Shown here piece by piece: positions 1 through 42,259 of a DNA stretch of 42,259 nt. Origin of the DNA: Lactiplantibacillus xiangfangensis. Lineage in GTDB: Bacteria > Bacillota > Bacilli > Lactobacillales > Lactobacillaceae. The stretch covers positions 1 to 42,259 of the forward strand of contig NZ_JQCL01000074.1 of assembly GCF_001438845.1 (NCBI RefSeq). The letters run 5' to 3'. The notes below the pieces were generated by a model. It was not told the DNA's origin, ran no database searches, and worked only from the letters and a program-made list of their open reading frames with translations. Position numbers and translations under genes: made by a program. The number at the start of each line of letters is the position of its first letter. The first letter of the stretch is position 1.

Positions 1-191
1 TAATCATCAGATGAATTATTGTATTTCATCTGACAACCATAAAGGGATTATCGCAGATTGCCCGAAACTCAAGGAGATTTTTTTGGCAGGATTTTGGCAG
101 GGAACCAAGTAAATTCTACCCATTTCAACCCGTTTCACTTCGTCTGAAATGCCGTTAAATCAAGCTTTTCACTTCAAGTGATACCTGCATT
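1..191. other. gene-free stretch downstream of guaA, at window edge
   Basis: No convincing gene is visible. It holds a short hairpin (CAGATGAA/TTCATCTG, about 8-34) and a direct repeat of TTTTGGCAGG near 80-101. The stretch directly follows the guaA 3' end, which is a known integration site for genomic islands in several Firmicutes and other bacteria (family knowledge). A short stop-to-stop reading frame on the minus strand around 1-100 could be a fragment of something that continues outside the window, but nothing recognisable can be assigned. Confidence 0.4.
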
Positions 192-1748
192 TTATTCCCA
201 TTCAATAGTCGAAGGTGGCTTGCTCGTAACATCATACACGATGCGGTTAACGTGGTCGACTTCGTTTACGATCCGTACGGAAATCTTTTGCAAGACGTCC
301 CATGGAATCCGTGCAAAGTCGGCGGTCATCCCGTCGATTGACGTTACGGCCCGGATACCGACTGTGTAATCGTACGTCCGGCCATCACCCATGACACCGA
401 CTGACTTGATCCCTGGTAATACCGTAAAGTACTGCCAGATTTCACGGTCTAAGCCGGCCTTTTTGATTTCATCCCGTAAGATATAATCACTATCACGAAC
501 GATTTCAAGCTTATCTTCCGTGATTTCACCAATCACCCGAATCCCAAGACCTGGGCCTGGGAATGGTTGCCGCCACACAAGGGCAGATGGCATGCCTAGC
601 TTTTCACCCAATTCACGTGCTTCGTCCTTGAACAAAGTCCGTAATGGTTCGATCAGCTTGAACTGCATGTCTTTTGGCAACCCGCCGACGTTATGGTGAG
701 ACTTAATCGTTTGCGCCGTGGACGTCCCACTTTCGATGACGTCAGTATACAACGTCCCCTGCGCTAAGAATTCCATCCCGTTTAACTTCGTCGCTTCTTC
801 GTCGAAGACTTGGATAAATTCGTTCCCAATAATCTTCCGCTTACGTTCTGGATCGCTAACGCCAGCTAATTTGCTCATAAACCGTTCTTTCGCATCAACT
901 TTAATGATGTTCAGTCCGAATTTACCTTCCAAACTAGCCATAACTTGGTCAGCTTCACCCTTACGTAACAGACCATGGTCCACGAAAATACTGGTTAATT
1001 GCGTCCCGATGGCCTTGTGTAATAACACGCCAACGACACTGGAGTCGACCCCACCGGATAATCCGAGTAAGACCTTCTTATCGCCAACTTCAGCCCGGAT
1101 CTTTTCGATTTGCATATCGATAAAGTCATCCATTGACCAGTTAGCTTCCGCTTGGCAGACGTTAAACGCGAAGTTCTTCAAGATGTTTTCGCCGTAGTCC
1201 GTGTTCCGAACTTCGGCGTGCAATTGAATCCCGTAGAACTTCTTGTCAACGTTTTGAATCGCTGCGATTGGGCAGTTCTTCGAAGTTGCCACCACGTCAA
1301 AACCATCTGGTGCTTGGGTAACCAAGTCACCATGGCTCATCCAAACTGACTGTTCCTTAGGCGTCCCGTCAAACAAGGTTGACGCGTCGCCGGTCACTTG
1401 GATGTTAGCCTTACCGTATTCCCGGTTGTCAGCTGATTCGACCTTACCGCCCGGAAGCATGTAAGTCATCAGTTGCATCCCGTAACAGATTCCCAAAATA
1501 GGCAAGCCTAAGTTGAAGATCTCAGGATCAACCCGAAAGGCGCCATCATCGTAAACACTGTTGGGGCCACCAGAGAAAATAATTCCCTTAGGGTGGCGGG
1601 CTTTGATTTCTTCAGCGGAAATCGTATTAGGCAGTAATTCCGAATAAATGCCGAAATCACGAATGCGTCGGGTAATCAACTGATTGTATTGACTACCAAA
1701 ATCCAACACAAGAATTGAGTCGAAAGACGCGGTGTCCGTTTTTGCCAA
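192..1748 (-). CDS. guaA: GMP synthase (glutamine-hydrolysing)
   Basis: Converts XMP to GMP with ATP and glutamine, the last step of de novo GMP synthesis in the cytoplasm. The class I glutamine amidotransferase domain comes first, with the nucleophile Cys in GICYGMQL and the His-Glu pair in IQLHAEVRN; lactobacilli use HAE where many species have HPE. The ATP-pyrophosphatase domain follows with the P-loop-like [11 protein letters not shown], and the C-terminal dimerisation domain ends in PSTIEWE. The most upstream start is GTG at 1757, but it lies inside the AAAGGAG ribosome binding site. The TTG at 1748 is 8 bases after that site and gives 518 aa, the usual length. It is a single gene with its own promoter at 1790-1818 and no visible purine riboswitch. 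Confidence 0.97.
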
Positions 1749-2941: not shown

Positions 2942-5900
2942 CTAATCTTCGTGCCGCCGGTGACTCGCACCTAATCCAGCTAACAAACCGGTCAAACCAA
3001 GCACACCCACAAGGATTCCGGCTAAGCCAGTCGCCCGTTCATCGGTCTGCGGTAAGGCCGTCGCCTTAGCTTGCGCGGGGGCAACCGTATGATCCGCCTG
3101 ACTAGTTGAAGTTAACGTCCGTGCTGGTCGTGCCGTTTTAACTGGTGCCACTTGTTTCTGAGCCTCGATAGGCGCAGTTGGTTGGCTCGTCTCGCCATTA
3201 TTTCCTGGTTTAACCGTGTCGCTGGTACCAGGTTCCGTAATCGTGTCACCGTTACCTGAATCGGTCGTACTATTGTTATTTCCCGAATCAACCGCGTTAC
3301 CACCGTCGTCTGGATCAGTAATCCCGTCGCCATTGCCCGGGTCGGTTGTTATGCCGTCACCATCACCTGGATTGGTCGTTGTGCCACCGCCGTTATCTGG
3401 GTCAGTCGTTGTACCGCCACCATTATCGGGGTCGGTCGTTGTACCACCGCCGTCACCTGGGTCGGTCGTCGTACCGCCACCATCGCCGGGATCAGTCGTT
3501 GTACCACCACCATCGCCGGGATCAGTCGTCGTACCACCGCCATTACCTGGATCGGTCGTTGTACCGCCACCGTCACCCGGTTGGTCCGGTTTGCCGGCCT
3601 CAACGACTGTAACAACCGCCGTCTGGGTATAGACGTTCCCCACAATATCGGTATACGTGTAAGTTACTGGGTACGTCCCGGCAACGCTGGTATCCACCGT
3701 TCCGCTAACCGTCACTGCACTCACTGTCAGTGGCTGACCCGTTGCGTCGGTTACTTGGACCAAGTTGTCACCCGGCTGCCAAGTATCCCCGACTTTCAAC
3801 TGGCTGTCGGCTACTTTCAGCGTCGCCTGTGAAGCCACCACGTTAACGGTCGCCGTATCCGTCGCTAAGTTTCCAGCGGCGTCCACGTACCGTAACGTTA
3901 AGGTATAGGTTCCAGGTTTCTGAACGTTTGGTGTCCCAGTGGCCGTGATTTGGTTCAAGTTTGCTGCGGAAAGCTGCGTGCCGTCCGCCGCAAACGTCTT
4001 TTGCCAATCGATACTGTCGTTTAACGTCCAGCTGGCTTTTGGTCCAGCGATAATCGTCACGTTTTGAACACCACTCACAACCGCCTTAGTTTTAACCGTC
4101 GTGACCACCGCGGTGAACTGCTGCGTCCGGCCTAAATTGTCGGTGTACGCCAACACAATGGTCTGTGGTTGTCCAATCATGGCATCACTCAAGTCGGGTC
4201 CCGTAACCACTTGCACGTCAGCGTTTTTGCTATCAATTGATTGCCCCGTGCTGTCCGTCGCACTGTCGACGTCACTTAAATAGTCCCACTTAGCGTTCGG
4301 ACCAGCGATGACTTGTGTTGGCTTAGTCGTCAAACTGGCTAGGTCAACGGTCACAGTCATCGTTGCCGTGACAGGATTTCCCACTGCGTCCGTATAAGTT
4401 AGCGTCACCGTTTGGGCACCCGCCTGTGCTGCGTTAATCGGTGTCATCGTAACCCCGGTGAAATCAGTGGTTGCTTTACCGGAGGCGTCGGTCACGCTCT
4501 GTACCAAATCAGCCGCCGTCAGTTTTGAGACGTCTTGTGGCCAAACAACTTGATCATCTTTAGCCGTAATCGTCGCCTGACTCGCAAGTACGTTGACGAT
4601 GGCCGTCGCTGAATGCACGACGCCCTGGTCATCGGTGTACGCGAACGTGACGGTTTGTTGGCCCGCCTGCGTTAAATCTGGACCGTTATTCACATTAGTA
4701 ATCTTTAAATTAGCCCATTCACTGGTATCAATCGCATTGCCGTCGTAATCACTGACACTAGCCAGGTGGTCTAAGTAGTTCCAGGTTGCGTTCGGACCCA
4801 TGACCACTTCACTTGGATCAAAGCTAATCTGAGCTTTTGATTGGGTCACTGGTTGAAAGACCAGCGCACCCGCTAGTAAATCAAATCCGTTCATCGACTG
4901 ACCGTTGAGATCCGTTGGGTACGTCGTATACGACCCATCGCTAAGATAAAATTGACCATATACTAGCTGCCCTTGGAACAACTGCGGGTTAACTAACGTA
5001 TATTGCCAAACAGTTGCCGTGGTGCCGTCAGCCTGTTTCTGAGCAACTTGGTTGGCGTCGGCCACGACCAACGTCCCACTAGCCGTCCCATCAGCTTGAT
5101 AGTAGCGGACCTGATAATTGATTGATTCACCATGAATCCCCTTGATTGGCGAAGTGACGACGACCGTATCTCCCTGTCGATAACTAACGGCCTGTTTGTT
5201 CCAAGCATACTGAAGAAAGCCGGTCACACGTCCACCTTTATGCGCCGATAACGTGTTCAGCGGACTAAAATCGGTAATGCTATTTCCGGCAAACGACGCC
5301 ACCGGATTAGACTGTGGATAATCATTTTCAAGCACCGCTTGCACGAACGGCGCTAAGATCGCAAATTGATGGTTGTTCATTCCGTAAGGATTAATCGACA
5401 TCGACTTAGACGAACCAAAGTCTAAGTCATAGATATAGTGCGGGTCCAAATCAGCAATCGTCCGTAACTGCTCATCCGTTGCGGCCCCCCAGTAAGGCGT
5501 CTCTAACGTTAGCCCTCTCAAAGTAACCGCTTTCAGCGGTGTAAAATCGAAATTCGGCATCTCTTTATAGCTAGCTCCGATTGCCACTTGGAAGTTGACT
5601 GAAACCCGGGATGGCAAATCAGCCAAGGTTTCCAAACCTTTAAGGCTCGTTACCGGCTGAACAGTCCCGTTAACCGAAGTTGTCACATTCAGACTCTGTC
5701 CGTAGCCGTGACCATAAGCTTTGATGGCGGCCTTAGTCAGTAACTGGTCATCCTTCAAGCTCATCCCTTTGCGAACGGCGGCCAGTAAGGTTGGATCTTC
5801 AAACTGGTCACTTAAATCTTGATCATCATCCGCTGGTGCGCCGGGTGCATCCCGCAACGCCTTCTTCTGATTAGGCGCTGTCGGTTGTGCGGCATCCTTG

Positions 5901-6358
5901 TCAGCCGGTGCAGCGGCATCACTGGTCAGTTCATTATTCTGATTCAATTCCTGCCCAGCACCCGTTGCTGGTTTTTCATTATTCTGTGCATCGGACGTGC
6001 CGGACTGTGCTGGCGTTTCTGGTTCAGCCGACGTCTTTTCATCAGGCTGCGCGTCTGACACTGCGGGCTTTACTGGTTGTTCTGAATCGCCTTGATTTTT
6101 CGTTTCAACCTTACCAGTCGTGGTCAGGGATTCCGATTCCACTTTTGGCGTTCCAGTAGTCTTTAACGGTACCGCTGACCCCGTTGATTGACCACTCGTA
6201 ACCGTCGTATCAATGCTGTTATTAGCTGACTCATTCGTGTCGGCTTGCCCCACAACCTGTGTTAACCCCATGGTTGCTACCGTAATTCCGGCAATAACCC
6301 AAAACCGACCTTTTTTATACATCTTGTAATGACGTTTCGTTGTTTGCACTTGTGTCAT
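2942..6358 (-). CDS. LPXTG-type cell-surface adhesin with Ig-like repeats
   Basis: A 1138-aa protein predicted to be secreted and covalently anchored to peptidoglycan by sortase A. The N-terminus has the KxYKxGxxW-type signal (KMYKKGRFW, residues 12-20) and a hydrophobic segment ending in GQA. A Ser/Thr/Gln/Glu-rich stretch follows (about 40-170). Next comes a unique region (about 180-500) with leucine-rich, internalin-like phrases such as LKGLETLADL and TDFSPLNTLSAH. About five Ig-like repeats (500-925) then recur with phrases such as QTVTLTYTDAVGN. A Gly/Asp/Thr linker of 10-residue repeats (GDGGGTTTDP, about 927-1015) spans the wall, and the end is LPQTDE (1102), a hydrophobic segment and RRHED. 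The LPQTxE form is typical of L. plantarum-group sortase substrates. The ligand is unknown. Confidence 0.88.
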   Translation of the reverse strand: MTQVQTTKRHYKMYKKGRFWVIAGITVATMGLTQVVGQADTNESANNSIDTTVTSGQSTGSAVPLKTTGTPKVESESLTTTGKVETKNQGDSEQPVKPAVSDAQPDEKTSAEPETPAQSGTSDAQNNEKPATGAGQELNQNNELTSDAAAPADKDAAQPTAPNQKKALRDAPGAPADDDQDLSDQFEDPTLLAAVRKGMSLKDDQLLTKAAIKAYGHGYGQSLNVTTSVNGTVQPVTSLKGLETLADLPSRVSVNFQVAIGASYKEMPNFDFTPLKAVTLRGLTLETPYWGAATDEQLRTIADLDPHYIYDLDFGSSKSMSINPYGMNNHQFAILAPFVQAVLENDYPQSNPVASFAGNSITDFSPLNTLSAHKGGRVTGFLQYAWNKQAVSYRQGDTVVVTSPIKGIHGESINYQVRYYQADGTASGTLVVADANQVAQKQADGTTATVWQYTLVNPQLFQGQLVYGQFYLSDGSYTTYPTDLNGQSMNGFDLLAGALVFQPVTQSKAQISFDPSEVVMGPNATWNYLDHLASVSDYDGNAIDTSEWANLKITNVNNGPDLTQAGQQTVTFAYTDDQGVVHSATAIVNVLASQATITAKDDQVVWPQDVSKLTAADLVQSVTDASGKATTDFTGVTMTPINAAQAGAQTVTLTYTDAVGNPVTATMTVTVDLASLTTKPTQVIAGPNAKWDYLSDVDSATDSTGQSIDSKNADVQVVTGPDLSDAMIGQPQTIVLAYTDNLGRTQQFTAVVTTVKTKAVVSGVQNVTIIAGPKASWTLNDSIDWQKTFAADGTQLSAANLNQITATGTPNVQKPGTYTLTLRYVDAAGNLATDTATVNVVASQATLKVADSQLKVGDTWQPGDNLVQVTDATGQPLTVSAVTVSGTVDTSVAGTYPVTYTYTDIVGNVYTQTAVVTVVEAGKPDQPGDGGGTTTDPGNGGGTTTDPGDGGGTTTDPGDGGGTTTDPGDGGGTTTDPDNGGGTTTDPDNGGGTTTNPGDGDGITTDPGNGDGITDPDDGGNAVDSGNNNSTTDSGNGDTITEPGTSDTVKPGNNGETSQPTAPIEAQKQVAPVKTARPARTLTSTSQADHTVAPAQAKATALPQTDERATGLAGILVGVLGLTGLLAGLGASHRRHED
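3310..3585 (-). repeat. tandem 30-bp repeats encoding wall-spanning linker
   Basis: Roughly eight or nine imperfect 30-base units encode (D/N)GGGTTTDP(G/D) decapeptides in the surface protein. Units differ mostly at synonymous or D/N/G positions. Such arrays are prone to changes in copy number by slippage, which would change how far the adhesin reaches through the wall. Confidence 0.85.
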
Positions 6359-8800: not shown

Positions 8801-8980
8801 CCGGTTGTCGCTGATAGCATGCGGTCGTGGGACCAGGTTAAGCCTGAGAAACGGTCTTAACCCTCGCCCGGAACAATTGCAAAAACCGCAATTGTCCCGG
8901 ACCGTCCGTGGTCTAAGGTCGGCAAAAAAGCGCCGACCAAATACCACCTTCACGACCGATACTATCAGCGACGACCTCTG
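8801..8980. repeat. multi-hairpin intergenic element E (outer stem plus three hairpins)
   Basis: The outer stem pairs 8804-8829 with 8951-8975 (core GTCGCTGATAG with CTATCAGCGAC, plus CGGTCGTG with CACGACCG). Inside are three hairpins: GGTTAAG/CTTAACC (8836-8862), a 13-bp stem with one mismatch around CAATTGC/GCAATTG (8868-8900), and GGTCGGC/GCCGACC extended by GTGGT/ACCAC (8909-8947). The whole can be drawn as a four-way junction. Its sequence differs from copies A-D, although the GGGACC…TTAAGCC…GTCTTAA order recalls the reverse strand of A. No protein is supported here. A weak hairpin, AACGC/GCGTT (8760-8783), just after the GH20 stop may be its terminator. Confidence 0.75.
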
Positions 8981-9016
8981 GCTATGCCATTAATTACTGG
9001 GGCTAAATAATTTTGT

Positions 9017-9200
9017 GCTTAGCGAAAGTCGGGTAGTCATGGTGTGCTGTGTCGGCAAGATTGGCAGACGCCCCATATGCCAATCTTGCGGGGCGATTTA
9101 AAGACGTGGTCTATCGGCTTTAAATCAAGGTCCCAGACCGCAGTATGGCTGGGGCCGGCCCCCATAGCACACCGAGACTGCCCGACGGAGCGGCTATTTT
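9017..9200 (+). repeat. structured intergenic repeat, copy A
   Basis: Outer stem 9028-9048 with 9166-9186 (GTCGGG…GGTGTGCT with AGCACACC…CCCGAC). Hairpin 1: GCAAGATTGGC (9055-9065) with GCCAATCTTGC (9079-9089). Hairpin 2: GATTTAAAG (9095-9103) with CTTTAAATC (9118-9126), loop ACGTGGTCTATCGG. Hairpin 3: GGTCCCAG (9129-9136) with CTGGGGCC (9149-9156). Left flank TTAGCG and right flank CGGAGCGGCTA are shared with the other copies. It lies tail-to-tail between the GH20 gene and the small gene at 9328. Confidence 0.85.
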
Positions 9201-9279
9201 AAAACAACACTTCCCACTACTACAACCTTGATGGCAATTTTGAACTGCATAACCTTTAGACAATAACTGATTCCAATCT

Positions 9280-13249: not shown

Positions 13250-13318
13250 TTAGTCGCTCCGGCTATCAGAACTGATGTTACCGACACAGCACACCAATTC
13301 TGACTGCCTGCGCTAAAT
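13250..13318 (-). repeat. short derivative of the structured repeat, copy D
   Basis: Read on the minus strand it keeps the left end (TTTAGCGCAGGCAGTCAG, then GGTGTGCTGTGTCGG) and the right end (GCCGGAGCGACTA) of copies A-C but lacks all three inner hairpins. The remaining arms still pair: GGCAGTCAGAATTGGTG with CATCAGTTCTGATAGCC gives 17 pairs with one mismatch and three G-U wobbles. It follows the 37-aa gene on the same strand. Confidence 0.7.
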
Positions 13319-16717: not shown

Positions 16718-17374
16718 ATGGCAACTTTTTCCGTTTACATGGTTCGACACGGACAAACCTACTTCAACAAATACCGCCGGATGCAGGGCTGGTGTGATTC
16801 CCCACTGACAACCGTGGGCGAAAACGACGCGCGCAACGCGGGTAAAATGCTCAACGGCATTCATTTCGACGCTGCCTACGCCAGTGACATGTCCCGCGCA
16901 ATGCGGACTGCCCAACTGATGCTACCGGCCAGTGATAACGCTGATTTAACCGTCCAACCACTAGCTGCCTTCCGGGAAGCTTTTTACGGCTACTTCGAAG
17001 GCGGCGACACGTCTCAGACTTGGTTTGAAGTCGGCGCGCCCCACAAAGCCCCGACCCTTTCAGCCATCATTGATCAGTACGGTATCGAAAAGGCTAAGGA
17101 CTTCTGTAAGGAGGCCGATCCTTTCCATAGCGCTGAAAACAATGCGGAGTTCTGGCAACGGGTCAACGGCGGCATCGATACTTTGCGTACCAATCAAAAA
17201 GACGGTGACAAAGTATTGCTCGTTTCACACGGCAATACCATTTACAGCATTGCCGACCGATTTGCCACGCTGACTTCACCGGAACGTCCCCAAAATGGGA
17301 GCGTCACTAAATTTACAATTACCGATGACGACGTCCAGCTAGACTACTTGGGTCGCAAAGACCACTTGGCGTAA
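16718..17374 (+). CDS. histidine phosphatase (phosphoglycerate mutase-like), first of a tandem pair
   Basis: A 218-aa member of the histidine phosphatase superfamily. The catalytic RHG motif is MVRHGQTYFNKY (His about residue 10), the second His is in VSHGNTIYS, and SDMSRAMRTAQL supplies the phosphate-pocket Arg. It lacks the length and motifs of true glycolytic GpmA, so it is a broad or unknown-substrate phosphatase. The next gene is a close paralogue starting 13 bases after its stop, so the pair is one transcriptional unit and probably a duplication. Confidence 0.88.
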   Translation: MATFSVYMVRHGQTYFNKYRRMQGWCDSPLTTVGENDARNAGKMLNGIHFDAAYASDMSRAMRTAQLMLPASDNADLTVQPLAAFREAFYGYFEGGDTSQTWFEVGAPHKAPTLSAIIDQYGIEKAKDFCKEADPFHSAENNAEFWQRVNGGIDTLRTNQKDGDKVLLVSHGNTIYSIADRFATLTSPERPQNGSVTKFTITDDDVQLDYLGRKDHLA

Positions 17375-17386
17375 GGAGGAATAACC

Positions 17387-18064
17387 TTGTCACAATTTTC
17401 AATTTACTTTATTCGCCACGGCCAAACCTACTTTAACCTATTCAACCGGATGCAGGGCTGGTCAGATTCCCCGCTAACGGACTACGGTAAGGAAACGGCG
17501 ACCAAGGTCGGGCAAGCCCTCGCCGGCACTAGGTTTGACGCCGTTTACTCAAGCGACTCTAAGCGGGCCATTGATACCGCTCGCCTCATCAGTAAAGCTG
17601 CGAACTTGACTCATCTAACACCTAAAGCGTTGATGAACTTCCGGGAAGTCTTCTACGGCTACTACGAAGGTGACGATTCAAGCCGCGCTTGGTCATTAGT
17701 CGGCCAAAAGTACGGTGTTAACAGCTTGCACGCCCTCTTAGACCACATCAGTATCGAAGAAAGTCGCGACCTAATGAAGTCGATTGATCCTTGGCACGAA
17801 GCTGAGGACAACGCGGCCTTCTGGGAACGCATTAACCAAGGCTTCGACTACCTAAAAGCGCACCATGACCACCATGAAAAGGTCTTGGTCGTTTCGCACG
17901 GCACGACCATTCGAAGCATGGTGGCCCACTTCGCCCCTGACATCGACATCACTCAGGGCCCTAAGAACGGTAGCCTAACCCGCATTGACGTGGACGGCGA
18001 CCAAATTAAAGTTGTGGACTACGCTAAAGAGCTGGTCCCAACCATCGCCAATCAACATTCATAA
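17387..18064 (+). CDS. histidine phosphatase (phosphoglycerate mutase-like), second of the pair
   Basis: A 225-aa paralogue of the preceding protein with the same plan: IRHGQTYFNLFNRMQGWSDSPLT at the start, SDSKRAIDTARL, FREVFYGYYEGD and VSHGTTIRSM. It starts with TTG behind AAGGAGGAATAACC. A strong terminator follows. Substrate unknown. Confidence 0.88.
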   Translation: MSQFSIYFIRHGQTYFNLFNRMQGWSDSPLTDYGKETATKVGQALAGTRFDAVYSSDSKRAIDTARLISKAANLTHLTPKALMNFREVFYGYYEGDDSSRAWSLVGQKYGVNSLHALLDHISIEESRDLMKSIDPWHEAEDNAAFWERINQGFDYLKAHHDHHEKVLVVSHGTTIRSMVAHFAPDIDITQGPKNGSLTRIDVDGDQIKVVDYAKELVPTIANQHS

Positions 18065-18186: not shown

Positions 18187-18368
18187 AAATTGGCCGCTCT
18201 GTCAGGTAACCTTGAGTGCTCTGGGGGACGGTCACAGCCATGGTTCGGTCTGTGACCTCGATTCAAAGCCGACAACCCACGTCTTTGGATTGCCCCGCAA
18301 AATTGGCGTATGAAACGCTCGCCAATCTTGCCGACACAGCACTCAAGGCTACCTGACTGCACTCAAAA
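18187..18368 (-). repeat. structured intergenic repeat, copy B
   Basis: The outer stem GTCAGGTAACCTTGAGTGCT (18201-18220) pairs with 18338-18357 at 19 of 20 positions, and the exception is a G-U wobble on the minus strand. Hairpin 1: 18297-18307 with 18321-18331 (GCAAAATTGGC, GCCAATCTTGC). Hairpin 2: 18260-18268 with 18283-18291. Hairpin 3: GGTCACAG (18230-18237) with CTGTGACC (18250-18257), a compensated variant of copy A's stem. It lies tail-to-tail between the phosphatase pair and the SMR gene. Confidence 0.85.
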
Positions 18369-20852: not shown

Positions 20853-21034
20853 TTTAGCGCAGTCAGGCAGTATCGGTGTGCTGTGTCGGCGACATTGATT
20901 GGCGTTCTTAGCCGGTGAATGTCGCAGGGCGATTCAAAGACGTGGTCTATCGGCTTTGAATCGAGGTACCAGACCGCACTCCGGCTGGGACCGACCCCAT
21001 AGTACACCGGTACTGCCTGACGGAGCAACTACTT
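20853..21034 (+). repeat. structured intergenic repeat, copy C
   Basis: The outer stem 20862-20882 with 21001-21021 pairs over all 21 positions, two of them G-U. Hairpin 1: GCGACATT (20889-20896) with AATGTCGC (20918-20925), extended by ATTGGC/GCCGGT. Hairpin 2: GATTCAAAG (20931-20939) with CTTTGAATC (20954-20962). Hairpin 3: GGTACCAG (20965-20972) with CTGGGACC (20985-20992). Its right flank CGGAGCAACTA contains the reverse complement of the TAG stop of the next gene (21029-21031). Confidence 0.87.
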
Positions 21035-40874: not shown

Positions 40875-41022
40875 CAAATGTTCCTGCTATGCAAAATATG
40901 GAGAAATATAGAAAAACATTACTGATTTCTATTTTTAGAAAGATTACATATTTCCTTTCTTGATTTTTGCTTGCTGCCGTTATCACGCCAGTATTCCGAT
41001 ATTCCACCAGGGAGTAATCACA

Positions 41023-41077
41023 TTGACCAACTATGACAGCTTAAGGGCTTTAGCCAGCCCCGTTAAATTATTATTTT
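41023..41077 (-). mobile_element. candidate right end of the IS200/IS605-type element
   Basis: After the tnpB stop, the minus strand shows a hairpin (GGGCT…AGCCC) and then reads GTTGGTCAA. TCAA is the kind of tetranucleotide at which some IS605-family right ends are cut. If so, the element ends at 41023 and the omega RNA scaffold would stop there, with flanking bases TGTGATTACTCCCTGG as the guide. The boundary is an inference. Confidence 0.45.
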
Positions 41078-42232
41078 TTAGATTAAATCTAATAAGTTGG
41101 CAACAGCATTCTCGTCACGATCCAGTATTGCGCCACAGCTATAACAAACATATTCACTATGCTTAGTCCGATGTGTTACATTGCCTTGTAGCGTAATTTT
41201 GTCGGCTCCAACTTTGATGTGACCACACTTTGAACAACGCTGTGTTGAAGGATACTCGTGATCTGCCAGAATAAGCTCTTTACCATACCAGTCGCACTTA
41301 TAACTTAATATTTGCCGAAAGTAACCAAACATTGACCGTTGTAAGCCCTTAGAAGCAACGTGACTCATCTGCATCTCCTTAACGGATAAGTCTTCAATCA
41401 CGATTTTATCGTAATTATTGACCAGCTGTGTCGTGAACTTTTGCATGATATCATGCTGGATGTTGGCAACTTTACGATAATCACGCTGCAATTTGGTTCT
41501 CATTGCACCGTAACGACTGCCCTTAGTTGCTTTATTACCATCCACAACTCGCTTATGAGATAACTGCTTTTGGTAAAAATTGATGCGCTGATACAACTTA
41601 CGTAACCGTTTCGGCAAGGTATCAACAATACCAACAGTGTAGTTTAAATGGCCAACATTCACATCAACAGCTGAATTATCACCAGTTTGTGGCTTGTCAT
41701 CAAGTTCAACCTCAAAGGGAAGACTGGCCCAGTATTTCCCATTTTCACGATAAATACTGACCACCTTCAGTGTGCCTGACAAATCAGTATGTTTGCTAAT
41801 CCTGATGTCATACCAATCTTTAACGCCACGTGGCTTATCCAATCGAAGTTTGCCCGCGACAATTTTAGCCCGGTCGGTTTTAAAACCTTGACGCGCAGCC
41901 TTTTTTGATTTGAACGCCGGTTTACCCCAGTCAGGCTGTGACTTATCAAAGAAGTTCTGCCAAGCTGTTCCTAAATCAGCAATTGCCAATTGTAAGGTAC
42001 GCGCTGATAACACGTATTGCCAATCAGCTTTATTCGCGACCAATTCATTCCGAACTGAATAAGTACTAGGGCGAGGACTATCGGAATCAAGTGTATGCAA
42101 ATCATACATGTCATTCCAGGTAGCCAATCCTTCATTCCAACAATACCTGCGATAATCACAAAGCCTATCGAGTACCTTTTTCATATGACGATTGGGATAA
42201 AGCCTTACTTTTTGTGTTCGGATCATCAGCAT
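41078..42232 (-). CDS. tnpB: TnpB, RNA-guided nuclease of an IS200/IS605-type element
   Basis: Up to 387 aa, counting from GTG at 42241; one of several ATG codons between 42226 and 42235 is also possible, so the start is uncertain. The N-terminal helix-turn-helix OrfB region (KVRLYPNRHMKKVLD) is followed by a split RuvC domain with Asp193 (VDVNVG), Glu283 (IVIEDLS) and the C-terminal LDRDENAVANL. All three catalytic acids are present. The zinc ribbon CSKC…CYSC is inserted before the last block and has a somewhat long spacer. TnpB cuts DNA guided by an RNA made from the element's right end. No tnpA is visible; it could lie beyond the window edge. Confidence 0.88.
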   Translation of the reverse strand: MLMIRTQKVRLYPNRHMKKVLDRLCDYRRYCWNEGLATWNDMYDLHTLDSDSPRPSTYSVRNELVANKADWQYVLSARTLQLAIADLGTAWQNFFDKSQPDWGKPAFKSKKAARQGFKTDRAKIVAGKLRLDKPRGVKDWYDIRISKHTDLSGTLKVVSIYRENGKYWASLPFEVELDDKPQTGDNSAVDVNVGHLNYTVGIVDTLPKRLRKLYQRINFYQKQLSHKRVVDGNKATKGSRYGAMRTKLQRDYRKVANIQHDIMQKFTTQLVNNYDKIVIEDLSVKEMQMSHVASKGLQRSMFGYFRQILSYKCDWYGKELILADHEYPSTQRCSKCGHIKVGADKITLQGNVTHRTKHSEYVCYSCGAILDRDENAVANLLDLI

Positions 42233-42259
42233 CATCACCACCCAAATTAGTGTTGTCTT

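Follow-up and report, generated by a model that had tools for sequence, protein, structure and literature searches.

MITE-like elements with a covarying three-hairpin module in Lactiplantibacillus xiangfangensis and other lactobacilli

The REP, BIME and REPIN sequences are intergenic, folded units that occur in inverted pairs and consist of palindromes of 20-40 nt; the REP sequences mobilised by RAYTs are short, carry a GTRG-type tag and have an associated RAYT transposase. The family described here is likewise composed of paired, inverted and folded intergenic units, but these units are of about 175 nt with three hairpins, and terminal repeats and target duplications are found.

BOX, RUP and SPRITE of Streptococcus pneumoniae are interspersed, folded, modular and non-autonomous repeats, which in the cited part of PMC3049150 are described as being in excess between converging genes and transcribable as 5' or 3' extensions. 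The lactobacillar elements resemble them in these respects, but their modules are longer, have three hairpins, occur as homologues on the two strands, and covary across genera under a tree-based test; from the boxA-boxB-boxC arrangement of BOX they are set apart by architecture, not by sequence comparison. Prokaryotic MITEs, as far as the cited part of PMC10969869 describes them, share with these elements the terminal inverted repeats, target duplications, small size, intergenic location and stable folds; typical MITEs are AT-rich, whereas the lactobacillar modules are GC-rich, with a fold that is supported by covariation and conserved across genera. Two streptococcal transcripts, as described in the parts of the sources cited, are also relevant. 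SSRC8 of S. pyogenes was detected by Northern blot and circular RACE, and its neighbours are a cell envelope proteinase gene on one side and a hypothetical gene on the other (PMC3675131). SN47 is a transcript of 122 nt from S. pneumoniae TIGR4, located on the plus strand in the interval from SP0051 to SP0052 (PMC2887815).

In searches of the open-access PMC literature, no paper was recognised as describing the present family. We regard the family as real and as a new class of structured RNA on a BOX-like kind of mobile repeat, for which a function is proposed below. It represents a structured RNA with strong covariation in several lactobacillus genera, with up to about 100 modules per genome, whose tested copies are without an Rfam family.

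Copies in the analysed window

The window, i.e. the whole stretch of 42,259 nt of L. xiangfangensis DNA that was analysed, contains the following features of the family.

8802-8979, minus strand: copy A, L module (superfamily-model match, 67.4 bits, E 1.2e-17)
8980-9018, strand-less: copy A, AT-rich spacer between the 5' ends of L and R
9019-9192, plus strand: copy A, core of the R module (covariance-model match, 177 bits)
~9027-9047 paired with 9160-9186, plus strand: copy A, outer stem
9055-9089, plus strand: copy A, hairpin 1
9095-9126, plus strand: copy A, hairpin 2
9129-9156, plus strand: copy A, hairpin 3
9193-9259, plus strand: copy A, 3' tail, ending in the degraded terminal repeat CATAACCTTTAG (flank alignment of 32 copies)
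13255-13316, minus strand: copy D, decayed remnant (35 bits, E 2.2e-8)
18195-18365, minus strand: copy B, core of an R module without L partner (169.3 bits)
20854-21027, plus strand: copy C, core of an R module without L partner (174.9 bits)

A sequence-only reading of the window had claimed a common fold for copies A, B and C, with an outer stem around three hairpins; this fold was borne out, and the stem sequences and compensated stems that had been quoted are present in the window. The loop of hairpin 2, described there as nearly constant, is identical in A and C and slightly different in B (ACGTGGGTTGTCGG). Copy D, the L module of copy A, the terminal repeats, the target duplications and the many genomic copies go beyond that reading.

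The predicted RNA fold of copy A has a free energy of -104.6 kcal/mol compared with a shuffle mean of -64.3 (z -9.8), and none of 200 shuffles folded as well. The 5' end of its L module faces the 5' end of the R module from the opposite strand; since the superfamily model matches 8802-8979 on the reverse strand, L is a homologue of R that is read in the opposite direction (MFE z -11.3 for this region, with the plus strand folded). A single promoter-like site in the spacer is no more than chance would give, and copy A as a whole showed neither a promoter nor a terminator exceeding chance, and no intrinsic terminator.

All three copies A, B and C are located between converging ORFs. Copy B, for which no strand had been given before, lies between a His_Phos_1 gene (plus) and an SMR-type efflux gene (minus), with the L-less junction TCCGGTTGTC upstream of its R module, and copy C lies between a GTP-binding GTPase gene (plus) and a TauE-family gene (minus; all Pfam assignments). 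Copy D retains the outer ends; its inner hairpins are gone.

Near copy B, two adjacent related genes at 16718-18064 share an 80% identical stretch, the second one encoding a histidine-phosphatase family protein. Further, a 30-bp direct repeat occurs at 3298-3597 in seven copies of overlapping register, within an ORF at 2942-6358 (minus strand).

Genomic copies, element ends and distribution

A covariance-model search of the genome, which had been proposed as a check, was performed with a model built from 40 copies and yielded 122 matches at E <= 0.01, some of which are antisense hits to the same places; 62 matches of more than 149 bits represent the class of the window copies, and diverged subfamilies are found besides. 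Annotation of 411 kb of the 2.99-Mb genome, in 93 patches that surround known hits, gave 78 hits of the class of the window copies (Ra) and 54 of their partner module (La); the diverged classes Rb and Lb account for 30 and 17 hits, respectively, and fragments are counted throughout. Decayed copies such as D are common. The family marks many intergenic gaps, which would be a gain for the annotation of lactobacilli.

Of the 64 complete R modules in the patches, 29 are accompanied by an L module at a distance of up to 130 nt on the 5' side. A total of 30 L-R pairs was found, all on opposite strands with the 5' ends facing each other across a gap of 20-85 nt (median, 39 nt), and all 18 adjacent pairs at loci of other genera have the same divergent order; exceptions are a same-strand L fragment beside one R module (C81) and same-strand neighbouring modules at two further loci (L299 and L319). 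The other 35 complete R modules are without adjacent L; hence persistence does not depend on the pair. Thirteen of these 35 keep a TCCGGTTATC-like junction at the position where L would be, and the junctions look as if L had been lost or gained between short direct repeats.

In the flank alignment, leaders and tails are conserved, and one repeats the other in inverted form (AACTAAAGGTTGAAAG and its complement). The terminal inverted repeats (CTAAAGRTTGAAAG) lie outside the modules and gave 73 matches with <= 1 mismatch, compared with one for the reversed control. Exact target duplications of 7-8 bp border 12 of 29 non-overlapping bounded elements (chance expectation, 33 of 2000 random flank pairings; 1.7%); these 12 elements are of 338-668 bp, and five consist of L plus R, two of two R-type modules, and five of a single module. 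By its ends and duplications, the element is a MITE that carries one or two structured-RNA modules, and the ~180-bp unit described at first is a single module within a MITE-like mobile insertion. The ends, the target duplications and the small size, apparently without a transposase, all agree with MITEs; the AT-richness that is typical of MITEs, though not defining, is lacking in the modules (GC content 0.50-0.67), and the spacers and ends look AT-rich by eye.

Among the ends with <= 1 mismatch, no pair flanking a transposase-sized interval was noticed, and the element ends alone had no match in plasmids. For other genera, a pairwise search revealed no clear terminal repeats, but multiple alignments showed ACTAAAG.TTG-like ends in L. 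brevis and Companilactobacillus.

Of 106 element clusters, five were unclassifiable by gene context, and the other 101 are located in 47 convergent, 48 tandem and six divergent gaps. The 127 background gaps from the same neighbourhoods (mechanical ORFs of >= 80 aa) comprise 17 convergent, 77 tandem and 33 divergent ones, i.e. the elements show a convergent excess (p 5e-8) and a divergent deficit (p 7e-5). R modules in tandem gaps show no orientation preference, with 22 pointing the same way as their neighbour and 20 the other way.

Seventy loci from the stronger of 112 matches were compared between genomes G000 and G004, and the gap is occupied in both at 40 of them. At the site of copy A, an R module is present in G004 with most of the L module missing, and in a third genome (G012) the element is absent with both flanks matching; the G012 loci L186, L201 and L211 contain no module. 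Sixteen of 19 same-orientation R comparisons gave 88-98% identity, whereas the 15 opposite-orientation comparisons gave 69.5-86.1%, which is as dissimilar as random copies (78.0 +- 5.4; 120 pairs); thus, a large share of the shared gaps represents independent insertions. An in-place inversion as the origin of the flipped elements was rejected for the same low identity. The frequent occurrence of unrelated, oppositely oriented elements in shared gaps of the two species suggests insertion hot spots or repeated replacement. The family is a rare case of a mobile-repeat RNA fold that can be traced across genera and also between two species at a shared insertion site.

A search of relatives had also been proposed. 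A search by DNA similarity detected copy A in eight of 60 relatives including its own genome, all of one genus. The superfamily model (R2) matches 31 of 201 genomes, in nine of 40 sampled Lactobacillaceae genera; at the level of the order it matches nine of 295 genomes, three of them outside Lactobacillaceae, and at the level of the class three of 398 (the family, order and class runs used stricter filters and a capped number of matches per genome). A strict loop pattern was found in 45 stretches, all from Lactobacillaceae genera or Lactobacillus sp., namely Levilactobacillus, Lactiplantibacillus, Furfurilactobacillus, Companilactobacillus and Lactobacillus sp.

An origin as plasmid or phage repeat was rejected, with copy A being without a match in plasmids or phages. 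An L. brevis module had no plasmid match and a Companilactobacillus module no phage match; the latter had one partial plasmid match of 40.6 bits, in Limosilactobacillus reuteri, and this partial module is located downstream of an IS30 transposase gene (plasmid NZ_CP030091.1, L385, 2969-3071). Among 29 viral contigs picked by the loop pattern, two (L225 and L237) have real modules and the others look like chance; on the former, an IMG/VR contig catalogued as viral, a divergent module pair occupies positions 851-1375.

Covariation, strand asymmetry and proposed function

The covariation test that had been suggested was performed with a tree-based null (own scripts, in the style of R-scape). For 63 copies from one genome, six of 14365 column pairs were significant, and all six belong to the fold. 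For 89 sequences from several genera (alignment fitted to the model; one antisense row and duplicates dropped), 32 of 14196 pairs were significant, and all 32 belong to the fold with none elsewhere; 91.6% of the cells in this alignment are paired, compared with 26.3-45.5% when one arm is slid by 1-3 columns. RNAalifold predicts 61 pairs for the alignment of 40 R copies, of which 32 have double changes, and 56 pairs for the alignment of 29 L copies, of which 30 have double changes. The initial view that the structure is under selection, either as RNA or as cruciform, is thus supported in that the covariation survives a null that takes account of the tree. Because the ~180-bp unit is a module of a mobile element, much of this covariation arose during its spread.

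In 62 of 63 Ra, 41 of 42 La, 16 of 20 Rb and eight of nine Lb copies, the sense strand gives the more stable fold of the two strands. For pairs that are common to both folds, the ratio of G-T to A-C cells is 86:34 for Ra, 50:43 for La, 20:13 for Rb and 11:9 for Lb. Both strands of copy A fold strongly, and its difference between sense and antisense is partly an effect of base composition (shuffle means of -64.3 and -58.1). The asymmetric stability and the G-U excess moderately favour selection as RNA over selection as cruciform, and partly show that selection acts on the fold as sense-strand RNA.

Changes between orthologous copies were analysed in 15 of the 19 same-orientation R comparisons (left out: both comparisons at L364, with 90.5 and 84.1% identity, L353 with 84.0% and L357 with 82.4%). 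Paired sites have changed less often than unpaired sites (83 of 1638 and 75 of 940, respectively; Fisher p 0.004). Single changes in the sense fold gave 38 G-U versus 15 A-C (p 0.002), and 26 versus 11 when confined to the pairs common to both folds (p 0.02); six of eight double changes retain Watson-Crick pairing. In eight L pairs, the ratio for common pairs (13:10) was not significant. These changes weakly support selection on copies after their insertion; from the rates, constraint after insertion is not evident, since divergence of the R modules (6.9%) is on a par with that of the rest of the aligned intergenic DNA (7.1%) and divergence of the L modules is higher (10.3%), although both stay below third codon positions (17%).

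We consider it probable that the family is a mobile element with modules selected as RNA. For the fuller reading, i.e. non-autonomous MITE-like elements whose working cargo is the structured RNA module, our confidence is somewhat lower and still better than even. In lactobacilli the module would mostly be transcribed as a 3' extension of a neighbouring gene and would fold into a compact domain, and a host protein would bind through two hairpins. The two inner hairpins share AG-A-C...G-G-CU (with an A-G mismatch or bulged A), as seen by eye in the alignments, and this is likely a protein-binding feature; the steps of 3' extension and protein binding themselves are put forward as a tentative suggestion. 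With a divergent pair, transcripts arriving from the left and from the right would each include a module in sense orientation, which would suit gaps between converging genes; convergent gaps may equally just tolerate insertions best, as the cited part of PMC3049150 argues for BOX, RUP and SPRITE.

An alternative is that the fold acts as DNA, as a cruciform or as single-stranded hairpins recognised by a transposase or during replication, and that RNA is irrelevant. The elements do move, both strands fold strongly, and the L orthologues show no G-U excess on common pairs; yet the sense strand is the more stable one in nearly all copies, the R orthologues do show a G-U excess on such pairs, as does the streptococcal set described below, the terminal repeats lie outside the modules, and a streptococcal relative is transcribed according to the cited part of PMC3675131, the SN47 transcript of PMC2887815 being a candidate for another. 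We consider this explanation unlikely.

Likewise unlikely, in our view, is a plain parasite that does nothing and whose arms are kept complementary by template switching (palindrome correction) rather than by selection. The equal rates at orthologous sites and in other intergenic DNA, the common decayed copies and the convergent excess, which would also be expected of a tolerated parasite, fit this explanation; however, palindrome correction predicts no strand asymmetry, and such asymmetry is observed. Moreover, conservation is among the highest in the hairpin loops and at the junctions, and several genera retain the fold, as does a Streptococcus-like genus in which the site upstream of purE is fixed.

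Streptococcal relatives and Rfam matches

In this Streptococcus-like genus (that of genome G237), 18 of 118 genomes match, with one copy each; we take the genus to be Streptococcus from its Rfam matches and the look of its proteins. A PurE-like reading frame is located just downstream of the module in 16 of the 18 genomes, and PurD-like sequence upstream of it in 13. SP0051 of strain TIGR4 is presumably purD. The fold is retained in the alignment of these copies, with double changes in 25 of 50 pairs and with 25 G-U versus eight A-C cells.

Whether the family is already catalogued has a divided answer. Four of five streptococcal loci matched Rfam SSRC8_2 (RF02616) with 39.8, 38.1, 32.2 and 29.8 bits, and the fifth had no match; all scores are below the gathering threshold of 72 bits. 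The alignment involves hairpins 2 and 3 of these relatives and positions 137-243 of the 281-nt model, hence the match is partial, and the lactobacillar modules tested do not match this model. Copy A matched no Rfam family even at E 10, modules in nine further loci had no match at E 0.01, and modules in six loci had only weak matches at E 1. The link to streptococcal RNAs that were seen on gels and tiling arrays makes it testable whether RNAs of bacterial MITEs act.

The streptococcal copies also bear on a third alternative, an ancestral cis-regulatory leader or trans-acting sRNA that was captured by a MITE and whose ligand is still sensed, or whose partner is still bound, by the lactobacillar copies; the single copy upstream of purE, the double changes in half of its pairs and the SSRC8 homology speak for it, but it is very unlikely given that the lactobacillar elements avoid divergent, promoter-bearing gaps and that SSRC8 of S. 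pyogenes is at another locus (in the cited part of PMC3675131). Just as improbable would be a twin module that supplies the RNA for a system of RNA-assisted transposition or immunity evasion, in which sense RNA of the divergent pair would bind a host or transposase partner in trans and direct insertion into, or replacement within, preferred convergent gaps; streptococci would then have retained two modules, one upstream of purE and one in the form of SSRC8.

A loop similarity of the streptococcal hits had suggested an L10 (rplJ) leader; this was rejected, as the hits are upstream of purE and below the Rfam threshold, and the true leader of the genome is a different sequence (RF00557, 70.2 bits at C15:205044-205156). 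The best other RF00557 match (22.3 bits, C98:21600-21759) overlaps one module and is below threshold.

Two other Rfam matches are located in the window. At 62-206 (minus strand), just 3' of a GMP synthase gene, there is a match to rli38 (55.1 bits; threshold, 49), which is unexpected outside Listeria. At 40983-42241 (minus strand), a TnpB-like gene with OrfB_IS605 and Cas12f1-like TNB domains has the Rfam Transposase-1 RNA (RF03014) at its 3' end; this is probably an IS605-type TnpB with its guide RNA.
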